A program made the translations under genes and the position numbers. DNA of 64,000 bases from the NCBI RefSeq assembly GCF_020510445.1, contig NZ_JAHBAG010000001.1:3758501-3822500 (forward strand), written 5' to 3'. Of this stretch, positions 50,243 to 53,732 are shown piece after piece. Position 1 is the first letter of the stretch. The number at the start of each line of letters is the position of its first letter. The stretch is from Hydrogenophaga taeniospiralis. Lineage in GTDB: Bacteria > Pseudomonadota > Gammaproteobacteria > Burkholderiales > Burkholderiaceae_C. The notes beneath the pieces are model-generated. The model had not been told where the DNA came from. It saw only the letters and a program-made list of their open reading frames with translations, and did not search any database.

Positions 50243-50275
50243 TTGCACGATTCCATATTTCAAGTATTATTGAAA
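50243..50275 (+). promoter_or_regulatory. arsR promoter with overlapping ArsR operator; likely leaderless start
   Basis: -35 TTGCAC (50243-50248), 16-bp spacer, -10 TATTAT (50265-50270). The palindrome TTTCAA-GTATTA-TTGAAA (50258-50275) covers the -10 and ends one base before the ATG at 50277. Predicted transcription start is at or next to the start codon and there is no ribosome binding site, so the message may be leaderless. Confidence 0.68.
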
Positions 50276-50276
50276 C

Positions 50277-50630
50277 ATGGAAATCACCACCCCCCAGGAA
50301 TCCCAGGCCTTGAGCGCGCTGGCCGCGCTCGCCCAGGTGCAGCGCCTGCGCGCCTTCCGTGCGCTGGTCGTGGCCGGCCCCGATGGCCTCACGCCCGGCG
50401 TGTTGGCCGAACAGCTGGGGGTGTCGCCCAGCGCGCTCTCGTTCCACCTCAAGGAACTGGCCCACGCCGACCTGGTGAGCGCCGAGCCGCAGGGCCGCCA
50501 CCTGATCTACCGCGCCAGCTTCGACCGCATGAACGCCCTGCTCGGCTACCTCACCGAACACTGCTGCGCCGGTCAGACCTGCGAAGTGCCGGCGGACGCC
50601 GGCTGCACCGACTGCGGGACCGCACCATGA
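50277..50630 (+). CDS. arsR: ArsR-family metalloregulatory repressor
   Basis: 117 aa winged-helix repressor: LAALAQVQRLRAFRALVVAG, then the recognition region LTPGVLAEQLGVSPSALSFH and HLIYRASFDRMNALLGYLTE. The C-terminus has CCAGQTC, and two more Cys (GCTDCG), a thiol cluster suited to bind trivalent arsenic outside the DNA-binding helix, as in ArsR types with C-terminal sites. It overlaps the next gene by ATGA and heads the ars operon. Confidence 0.93.
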   Translation: MEITTPQESQALSALAALAQVQRLRAFRALVVAGPDGLTPGVLAEQLGVSPSALSFHLKELAHADLVSAEPQGRHLIYRASFDRMNALLGYLTEHCCAGQTCEVPADAGCTDCGTAP

Positions 50631-51937
50631 ACCTGGCCGACGCCATCAACCTGGGCTGCGCCTGCCAGACCCTGCGGCCCTCACGCCTGCGCGAGCAGCT
50701 GGAAACCAGCCCGGCGCTCGGCGGCCTGACCGCGCGGCTGGCTGAGAGCCACCCGCACCTGTTTTCGGCCAGCGCCGTGTTCCTCGACCCCGGGGTGCGG
50801 CAGCAGATCGTGCAAGCCGTGGAGGCGATGGAACGCGTCATCGCCCTGCCCGCCTGGCGCGAGCAGGCCCTGGCGCGCGCGAACCCGATCGCGGCTTTGG
50901 ACTGGGGCCCGGCCGGTGTTTTCATGGGCTACGACTTCCACCTCAGCGCCGATGGCCCCAAGCTGATCGAGATCAACAGCAACGCCGGCGGCGCCCTGCT
51001 CAACGCCGCGCTGGCCAGGGCCCACCGCGCCTGCTGCGCCGGCTTCGAACCGCTGTTCGACCCGGCCGACACGCTGCTGCGGCTCGACGAGGTGTTCGTC
51101 GCCATGTTCCGCGCGGAATGGCAATCGCAGCGCGGCGACGCACCGCTGCGCAACGTGCTGATCGTGGACGATGCACCCGGCCAGCAGTACCTGGCCCCCG
51201 AGTTTCAGATGGCGCGCGCGCTATTCGCCGCCCAGGGCCTGATCGCCGTGGTGGCCGATGCGCACGAGCTGCAGTGGCGCGACGGCGCGCTCTGGCACCC
51301 GGCCCTGCCGGATGGCATGCCGGTGGACCTGGTCTACAACCGCCTGACGGATTTCTACCTGCAGGACAACGGCCACGAAGCGCTGCAACAGGCCTACCGC
51401 GCGGGCGCGGCCGTGGTCACGCCGCACCCGCGCACGCATGCGCTGTACGCCGACAAACGCAACCTGATCGCCTTGTCCGACCCCGCGCTGCTCGAAACCT
51501 GGGGCGTGAGCGAAGCCGACCGCGCCGTGCTGCGCCAGGTGGTACCCGCCACGCAGCGCGTCACCGCTGCCAACGCCGACGCGCTCTGGGCCCAGCGGCG
51601 CACACTGTTCTTCAAACCCGCCGCCGGCTTCGGCGCGCGCGCCGCCTACCGCGGCGACAAGCTCACCCGGCGCGTGTGGGGCGAGATCCTCGCGGGCGAC
51701 TACGTGGCCCAGACCACCGTGCCGCCCAGCGAGCGGCTGGTGTCCGTCGATGGCCAGACCACGCTGCTCAAGCTGGATCTGCGCGCCTACACCTACCGCG
51801 GCCAGGTGCAGCTTCTGGCCGCGCGCACCTGGTCGGGCCAGACCACCAATTTCCGCACCGAAGGCGGCGGCTTTTCGCCAGTGGTGGTGCTGCCGCCCGC
51901 CGCCTCGCTCCCCAACCCCTTTCCTTTCCAAGCCTGA
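50627..51937 (+). CDS. ATP-grasp-like protein of unknown function in the ars operon
   Basis: 436 aa; not a known Ars protein to me. It has ATP-grasp features in permuted order: the Mg-binding-type motif PKLIEINSNAGGALLN lies at 112-125, whereas the Lys and Gly-rich loop TLFFKPAAGFGARAAYRG come later at 326-343, followed by LKLDLRAYTYRGQVQ (381-395). Glutathionylspermidine-synthase-like enzymes are circularly permuted this way. Cys pairs C11/C13 and C136/C137 could touch arsenic. Its ATG overlaps the arsR stop and the Cys-rich peptide follows 12 bp later. It may ligate a small thiol or amino acid, but this is inference. Confidence 0.75.
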   Translation: MNLADAINLGCACQTLRPSRLREQLETSPALGGLTARLAESHPHLFSASAVFLDPGVRQQIVQAVEAMERVIALPAWREQALARANPIAALDWGPAGVFMGYDFHLSADGPKLIEINSNAGGALLNAALARAHRACCAGFEPLFDPADTLLRLDEVFVAMFRAEWQSQRGDAPLRNVLIVDDAPGQQYLAPEFQMARALFAAQGLIAVVADAHELQWRDGALWHPALPDGMPVDLVYNRLTDFYLQDNGHEALQQAYRAGAAVVTPHPRTHALYADKRNLIALSDPALLETWGVSEADRAVLRQVVPATQRVTAANADALWAQRRTLFFKPAAGFGARAAYRGDKLTRRVWGEILAGDYVAQTTVPPSERLVSVDGQTTLLKLDLRAYTYRGQVQLLAARTWSGQTTNFRTEGGGFSPVVVLPPAASLPNPFPFQA

Positions 51938-51949
51938 CTGGAGCTACCG

Positions 51950-52147
51950 ATGAAACGCTTTCACGTCTGGGAACAGTTCCACACGCTGGACAAAATTCCC
52001 GTGTTCAGCGAGACCCGTGCGCCCGAGCCGGCGACCTCGGCCTGCTGTGCCCCCCAGACCCCGGCGGCCCGGCCCGTGTCCATCCCGCTGGCGGCCGCGC
52101 CGTGCTGCGGCCCTGCGTCGTCCGCCCACCCCTCCGGCTGCTGCTGA
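51950..52147 (+). pseudogene. internally deleted ArsI/CadI-like protein keeping its Cys-rich tail
   Basis: 65-aa in-frame ORF with GGAG before the ATG. It begins MKRFHV, the typical start of ArsI/CadI glyoxalase-fold proteins, then jumps to WEQFHTLDKIPVFSETRA, which resembles the C-terminal end of those proteins, followed by ACCAP, PCCGP and GCC. About 100-120 central residues with the metal and arsenical sites are missing. It is therefore a remnant, or a re-used small thiol-rich peptide with three Cys pairs (32-33, 52-53, 64-65). The comparison to ArsI is from memory. Confidence 0.65.
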
Positions 52148-52176
52148 GCGCCTACCTCAACGAATCCACTTTCGCC

Positions 52177-52698
52177 ATGACCACCCCGAACCAGACCCTG
52201 AACGTCCTCTTTCTCTGCACCCACAACTCGGCCCGCAGCATCTTGGCCGAGGCCGCCCTGAACCACCTGGGAAAGGTCAAAGGCGTGCAGCGATTCCGCG
52301 GCTTCTCCGCCGGCAGCAGCCCACGCGACAACCAGCAACCCAACCCGCTCGCCCTTCGCGCCCTGCAGGACGCCGGCATCGCCACCGAGGGCCTGAGCAG
52401 CAAGAGCTGGGACGTGTTCGCCCTGGCCGATGCGCCCCGCATGGACCTGGTGATCACGGTCTGCGACAACGCCGCTGGCGAGGTCTGCCCGTACTGGCCC
52501 GGCCAGCCGGCCACCGCGCACTGGGGCTATGCCGACCCGTCGAACGCGCCGGGCAGTGAAGCGGACAAACTCGCGGCCTTCAAGCAGACGCTGCTCGCCA
52601 TCCACCGCCGGCTGGAGCTGCTGATCAACCTGCCCCTGGCGAGCGTGGACCGCCTGCTGCTGCAACAACAGGCCCGCGATCTGGCGCAGAAAGACTGA
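52177..52698 (+). CDS. arsC: arsenate reductase, low-molecular-weight phosphatase type
   Basis: 173 aa from the ATG at 52177. The P-loop is [17 protein letters not shown] (C14-x5-R20), and the redox region [18 protein letters not shown] provides the extra Cys. C-terminal [18 protein letters not shown] has the catalytic-type Asp. This is a different family from the glutaredoxin-linked enzyme at 31.7 kb. It lies 5 bp before acr3, giving reduction followed by export. Confidence 0.94.
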
Positions 52699-52703
52699 GC
52701 ACC

Positions 52704-53732
<1,029 letters not shown>

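Follow-up and report, generated by a model that had tools for sequence, protein, structure and literature searches.

A circularly permuted ATP-grasp-fold protein encoded in an arsenic operon of Hydrogenophaga taeniospiralis, with relatives in copper and mercury resistance loci

The arsenic operon and its second gene

We examined a 64,000-nt stretch of the Hydrogenophaga taeniospiralis genome (contig NZ_JAHBAG010000001.1; 5.28 Mb in 3 contigs), hereafter the window, in which the second gene of an arsenic operon encodes a 436-aa protein of the circularly permuted (CP) ATP-grasp fold. The genes were found in the order arsR, CP ATP-grasp gene, arsI remnant, arsC and acr3 on the forward strand (50277-53732; Table 1). 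A first-pass annotation, made from the sequence alone, had proposed this second open reading frame (ORF), its translational coupling to arsR, and an arsC and an acr3 downstream. The ORF was recovered with the same limits, and both downstream genes were confirmed by profile matches. It was noted that the operon copy is the sole acr3 match in the genome. The ArsR protein carries a C-terminal cysteine cluster (C96-C97-x4-C102), the layout of which we take to be similar to the As(III) site of Acidithiobacillus ArsR. Among the best 80 of 329 relatives, the closest named relatives of the 436-aa protein were Hydrogenophaga records.

Table 1. Features of the operon and its second gene, in window positions.
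Feature	Coordinates	Strand	Basis
Candidate ArsR operator, perfect dyad TTTCAA-N6-TTGAAA with 6-nt arms	50258..50275	.	Exact inverted repeat found by script, just 5' of arsR; putative operator role
arsR, ArsR/SmtB-type metalloregulator	50277..50630	+	NCBIfam NF033788, 55.8 bits (cut-off 55); Pfam HTH_20, HTH_5
CP ATP-grasp-fold protein, 436 aa	50627..51937	+	Fold; sub-threshold PF14403; no NCBIfam match at E up to 1
Codons of the C11-x-C13 pair	50657..50665	+	Conservation over 143 sequences
LIEINSNAGG, residues 113-122, with the putative Mg-ligand pair E115/N117	50963..50992	+	Both invariant in 143/143; hhalign to the GspS DF...EYN motif (overall alignment not significant); Mg binding assigned by analogy
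Codons of the C136-C137 pair	51032..51037	+	Conservation
FFKPAAGFGA, residues 328-337, predicted ATP-binding Lys330 and Gly-rich loop	51608..51637	+	Conservation; counterpart of the GspS K533 loop
arsI remnant: first 6 residues and Cys-rich C-terminal tail, VOC domain deleted in frame	51950..52147	+	DNA alignment with L021, L081 and L022
arsC, low-molecular-weight phosphatase (LMWPc) type arsenate reductase	52177..52698	+	PF01451, 5e-14; TIGR02691, 6e-18, under its cut-off
acr3, arsenite efflux permease	52704..53732	+	TIGR00832, 415 bits (cut-off 283)

The ATP-grasp gene overlaps the end of arsR by four nucleotides (ATGA). In 42 of 81 loci, comprising the window and the relatives L021 to L100, the co-directional gene lying at most 400 nt upstream was that of ArsR. 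The exact 4-nt overlap was shared by 22 of these, and the gap ranged from -7 to +26 nt in 36; of the remaining values, two near -305 are stop-search artefacts and four are 53-282 nt. Because so many loci share this spacing, the coupling to arsR, as read from gene positions, is conserved among the relatives.

Fold class and active-site residues

The AlphaFold model of the protein was confident (predicted local distance difference test, pLDDT, 92.6), and its strong whole-length structure matches were all circularly permuted ATP-grasps, namely YgiC, glutathione synthetase, glutathionylspermidine synthetase (GspS) and Cp1B. The top Foldseek matches were glutathione synthetases (E 2.5e-15), and the best VIA match was YgiC. 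The whole-chain fold is that of GspS and glutathione synthetase, with the metal motif ahead of the Lys/Gly-rich lid. This agrees with the first-pass annotation, which had read an EIN-type motif at residues 113-122 (E115-I116-N117 in LIEINSNAGG) before a Lys/Gly loop at 328-337 (FFKPAAGFGA). Assignment to the CP ATP-grasps, an amide-ligase class, is secure on the predicted model, and the protein is a new subfamily of this known enzyme class. The window protein scored 14.7 bits against Pfam PF14403, for which the gathering score is 32 bits; 8 of 46 members reached E 0.01, and the best listed score was 26.2 bits (L164). PF03738 (glutathionylspermidine synthase) was without a match, both in the window protein at E up to 1 and genome-wide at E 0.001. 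These curated cut-offs rule out membership in GSP_synth or CP_ATPgrasp_2. A profile search of PDB sequences returned no true relative, its two matches having E values of 0.39 and 0.66.

We aligned 143 sequences, including that of the window and one fragment (L202); 125 were at least 40% identical to the window protein and 18 were more distant. D103, H105, E115 and N117 were invariant in 143/143, and K330, K382, D384, R386 and R400 in all 142 sequences with a residue at those positions. Lys330 was thereby present in 125/125 sequences at 40% identity or more and in the 17/17 distant ones with a residue there, and K277 was kept in at least 97% of sequences. Comparison with GspS of E. coli MG1655 aligned its GR316MDF...YEYN with G101YDF...IEIN of the window protein, such that GspS D318, E330 and N332 correspond to D103, E115 and N117, and GspS K498 and K533 to K277 and K330. 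The hhalign comparison was not significant as a whole (E 0.28); the D/E/N motif was placed all the same. In Cp1B, alanine at R139, D141, E163 or N165 abolishes or weakens activity (PMC12568646). Of the full residue set of these enzymes (R-x-D...E-x-N and two ATP lysines), the window protein keeps D103, E115, N117, K277 and K330, and has Gly101 in place of the arginine. Since the D/E/N residues and lysines are kept and the arginine is replaced by glycine, the enzyme is probably active with a different binding of its carboxylate substrate. The substrate mode of GspS and Cp1B cannot be assumed for it, because their arginine is absent.

Some members of the copper-linked branch were found to carry a C-terminal extension of approximately 110-150 residues (L152, 6965-8674; L012, 1492-3264; L148, L155 and L164). 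A Pfam scan detected no added domain in these five.

A cysteine quartet that largely follows clade

Four cysteines, C11, C13, C136 and C137, occurred together in 118 of the 125 sequences at 40% identity or more, with three sequences having neither pair and four having one pair only. The quartet was found in 0/18 of the more distant sequences, so that over all 143 sequences 118 possessed both pairs, 20 neither and five only one. By genomic context, it was present in 61/62 arsenic, 23/24 copper and 34/56 unassigned sequences, and the single mercury-context member had three of the four cysteines. In a tree built with a quick method from 127 of the 143 sequences (leaving out L202, L075 and most rows at 70% identity or more), a Cys-less distant clade of 16 rows split off with 100% support in the Shimodaira-Hasegawa-like approximate likelihood ratio test (SH-aLRT), and long-branched rows without the full quartet (L014, L173, L176, L185, L186 and L163) lay on the other side of the tree. 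The two pairs are linked largely by clade, a distribution that is evidence of co-occurrence across sequences and not of contact. Together the four cysteines are likely to make up a metal site of the enzyme, stabilising it or reporting metal.

The prevalence of the quartet in 118/125 sequences would also suit a protein that has passed beyond the need of catalysis and binds or senses metal, with the four cysteines doing the work. Such an inactive scaffold would have no need of the ATP/Mg residues, however, and these are kept in essentially all aligned sequences; we consider this explanation very unlikely.

Genomic context of the relatives

The search of genome contigs found 329 relatives, of which the best 80 were kept (49-94% identity), and ars genes were scored with reference proteins, the majority of which had NCBIfam or Pfam names. 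In 59/80 loci there was a strong ars gene (ArsC, Acr3, ArsB, ArsI, ArsH, ArsJ, ArsA or ArsP). We then compared 24 genomes of the genus, all searched for acr3, 10 of which have a copy of the ATP-grasp gene at about 75% identity or more. In eight of these 10, acr3 lay no more than 3.8 kb from the gene; of the other two, one (G025) has acr3 118 kb away and one (G014, with a partial gene) has none. By simple arithmetic, the chance of a random gene lying so near the one acr3 in 5.28 Mb is approximately 0.2%.

The plasmid relatives presented a different profile. Translated searches (tblastn) of plasmids gave 32 records, all below 60% identity, annotated as (conserved) hypothetical protein in 30 cases and without a feature under the match in two. 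Among the 20 records examined, 14 loci were copper-linked by a strict marker set (P-type ATPases, CopA/CopB, azurin, DUF305 and the like) that leaves out the unspecific CueR and RND matches. An RND match only was found in three loci (L147, L155 and L164), a CDF match in one (L156), and nothing from the marker set in L161, although DUF305 is annotated nearby. On pMR68 the gene lies downstream of merA and an alkylmercury lyase gene. No ars genes were detected in the 20 plasmid loci. An arsenic-only family is ruled out by the copper markers and by merA, and homologues are not confined to ars loci. The link to arsenic made by the first-pass annotation therefore stands for the 80 nearest loci, where homologues lie mostly with ars genes; it is not exclusive, since plasmid and more distant relatives lie mostly outside arsenic loci. 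On the quick tree of 127 rows, arsenic and copper labels were clustered yet changed several times (16 and 13 changes, versus shuffled means of 40.0 and 22.3).

Several further contexts were recorded. In a separate gammaproteobacterial branch (L093, L095, L096 and L100) arsJ lies near the gene, as in some Hydrogenophaga loci. Sphaerotilaceae copies (L068, L073, L078 and L083) sit between genes for a CDF cation transporter and a glutathione S-transferase, without strong ars genes. In a metagenome-assembled genome labelled Bacteriovorax stolpii (L088), which is outside Pseudomonadota if the label is right, the gene stands beside P1B ATPase, CueR-type and multicopper oxidase matches.

The small gene after the ATP-grasp gene had been read in the first-pass annotation as that of a thiol-rich peptide. 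The ORF is real; however, it is not an independent component. DNA alignment showed that its 65 codons are the arsI of L021 (170 codons) or L081 (168 codons) minus the middle, in frame, with a deletion of approximately 105 internal codons relative to L021. At the junction MKRFHV is followed directly by WEQFHTL..., with the Cys-rich tail CCAP...CCGP...GCC retained. The intact L081 product matches NF041414 (ArsI/CadI) above cut-off, and the VOC domain by which the ArsI C-As lyase is recognised is lacking in the 65-aa peptide. At the arsI position of 14 relatives, nine have full-length products of 144-184 aa (L021, L022, L023, L081, L026, L037, L046, L048 and L055) and three have short ones (69 aa in L051; 54 aa in L027 and L028). 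The same script gave no product in two, L024 lying at a contig edge and L075 having a 165-aa ArsI-family ORF called by another script. The short ORFs are at 7324-7488 in L027 and L028 and at 7323-7532 in L051. Loss of arsI beside the ATP-grasp gene seems, from these alignments, to be recurrent. As an arsI remnant, the 65-aa peptide is ruled out as a peptide-ligase substrate or metallothionein, and the full-length arsI in nine of the 14 relatives likewise rules out a separate conserved thiol peptide or precursor.

These neighbourhoods bear on the possibility of a tagging ligase, RimK-like, by which a protein or peptide of the resistance system would receive an amino acid or polyamine that alters its metal binding or turnover. 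A constant protein partner was not found: ArsI occurs in 14/80 loci, Acr3 in 33/80 and ArsC of the low-molecular-weight type in 47/80, and the 20 plasmid loci are without detected ars genes. The match to YgiC, with the RefSeq annotation of YgiC as peptide--spermidine ligase, and the Cys-rich ArsI tails near the gene in some loci do speak for tagging, which we regard as unlikely.

Distant homologues without the quartet

In the GTDB family f206, the homologue was found directly before a TIGR04283 gene (over cut-off and no more than about 150 nt away) in 20/23 genomes, the exceptions being G467, G483 and G512. A TIGR04282-type gene was near in five of the six f206 loci read, with one member of each cluster named by NCBIfam. 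Both families bear the NCBIfam name arsenosugar biosynthesis glycosyltransferase, which is annotation only. In L199-L203 (f206) the Cys-less homologue lies in a tight cluster with the TIGR04283 and TIGR04282 genes, and in part of the Cys-less loci L187-L197 a Rad50-like ATPase, an MFS transporter and a PstS-type protein are nearby, with no metal genes of the set used. Among 25 genomes chosen for carrying a distant homologue (18 of them f206), ArsS (TIGR04167) was over cut-off in 24, versus 1/14 controls.

The glycosyltransferase neighbours and the ArsS distribution, together with the ArsJ/GAPDH or ArsI genes found beside some of the near copies, would be consistent with conjugation of organoarsenicals, in which an arsenic-containing carboxylate is joined to an amine and the metal-island copies re-use that chemistry. 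The names of the glycosyltransferases are annotation only, however; ArsS lies on another contig or far off in the genomes listed, and no ArsI, ArsJ, ArsH or ArsP match was found in the 20 plasmid loci. We judge this explanation quite unlikely.

Glutathione synthesis genes were also assessed in the 25 distant-clade genomes. A GCS2 match was found in 24/25, and TIGR01380 (GshB) was over cut-off in 0/25, an absence that is not proof because only 3/14 controls pass. Full-length GshB-like matches of approximately 195 bits were seen in three of the 25, none of them f206, and PF02955 was over its cut-off in 16/25, strongly in three and weakly in the rest. The GshA family PF08886 had no match in these genomes or in any control and is therefore uninformative. 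In some of these lineages glutathione, or something similar, may be the product of a different ligase, which we offer as a lead. With the glutathione synthetases at the top of the Foldseek matches, this pattern brings up a metal-tolerant back-up glutathione (or homoglutathione-type) synthetase of eukaryotic fold that would sustain the thiol pool under metal poisoning. The Gly101 replacement, the GshB of the host and the GshB-like and PF02955 matches in the distant genomes count against such an enzyme, and we hold it to be unlikely.

Proposed function

The usual account of arsenic and copper resistance in bacteria invokes reductases, pumps, oxidases and binding proteins. Because relatives of the ATP-grasp gene also sit in copper and mercury resistance islands, its product is probably a small molecule with which bacteria withstand thiol-loving metals. 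Of the readings considered, the likeliest, which we put forward tentatively and at less than an even chance, is that metal induces an amide ligase whose product is a metal ligand of the glutathione type. From the operon order, ArsR would control induction of the gene with the arsenic operon. With ATP and Mg2+, a carboxylate would be phosphorylated at a site formed by E115, N117, D103, K277 and K330, and the acyl phosphate would then be joined to an amine. The product would be a small thiol ligand akin to glutathione, buffering As(III), or Cu(I) or Hg(II) in relatives, until Acr3 or other pumps export the metal. That the enzyme makes or attaches a thiol ligand, as the first-pass annotation had suggested, we infer from the chemistry that As(III), Cu(I) and Hg(II) have in common, the glutathione-type fold kinship and the possible gap in distant genomes. 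Sequence and predicted model themselves show the gene, its operon, the fold, the kept ATP/Mg residues, the link to loci for thiophilic metals and the Cys quartet; catalysis, induction, substrate, product and what the cysteines do are inferred from these. A bolder form, in which metal induces a dedicated ligase that has a Cys4 metal site of its own and makes a new low-molecular-weight metal ligand against arsenic, copper and mercury across Pseudomonadota, is credible but doubtful.

Several observations weigh against a glutathione-type metal ligand. The position of GspS R316 and Cp1B R139 is glycine in 136/143 sequences (119/125 at 40% identity or more and 17/18 below), and γ-Glu-Cys or glutathione may not be bound as in the known enzymes. 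The host genome already has GshB, the small peptide behind the idea of thiols is a remnant of arsI, and the f206 GshB gap is uncertain, with PF02955 weakly over cut-off in 12/18 f206 genomes and absent in six. No strong ars gene was present in the fetched DNA of 21/80 near loci, of which 10 are shorter than 10.1 kb and four have ArsR directly upstream (L024, L025, L053 and L061). In the genus, acr3 was over cut-off in 10/14 genomes without a close copy; the ATP-grasp gene is therefore accessory. CueR-like sites were found upstream in only 3/27 scanned loci, in shared divergent regions.

In the open-access literature accessible to us, no description of this family in arsenic, copper or mercury resistance was found, and prior description elsewhere is possible. 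A study of Nitratiruptor records an unnamed ATP-grasp gene that is up under Cd and Cu (PMC10092412). A widespread unnamed ligase in such operons and plasmids suggests a dedicated small molecule made under metal stress. With the Cys quartet, the replacement of Arg by Gly and the operon partners as starting points, substrate screens and mutants can be designed directly.

Comparison with known systems

Among Pfam families, PF14403 (CP_ATPgrasp_2) matches the window protein, but below the cut-off of 32 wherever a score is listed. E. coli YgiC and YjfC (PDB 7uka and 7uk6) share 9-10% identity with the window protein, and YgiC lacks an EIN/EYN string. E. coli GspS (gss; 2io7 and 3o98) has R316 where the window protein has Gly101; the latter is without a PF03738 match, is shorter and has no separate N-terminal domain. 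Cp1B (9cjn), an amide ligase of the fungal E-64 pathway, needs R139 and belongs to a fungal natural-product context. Human glutathione synthetase presumably possesses both the EIN motif and the R-x-D arginine. The eukaryotic glutathione and homoglutathione synthetases (8fbz, 1m0w and 3kal) differ from the window protein in operon partners and in the R-x-D arginine, for which it has glycine, at 11-16% identity; they are nevertheless its top Foldseek matches, and the permuted order is common to both.
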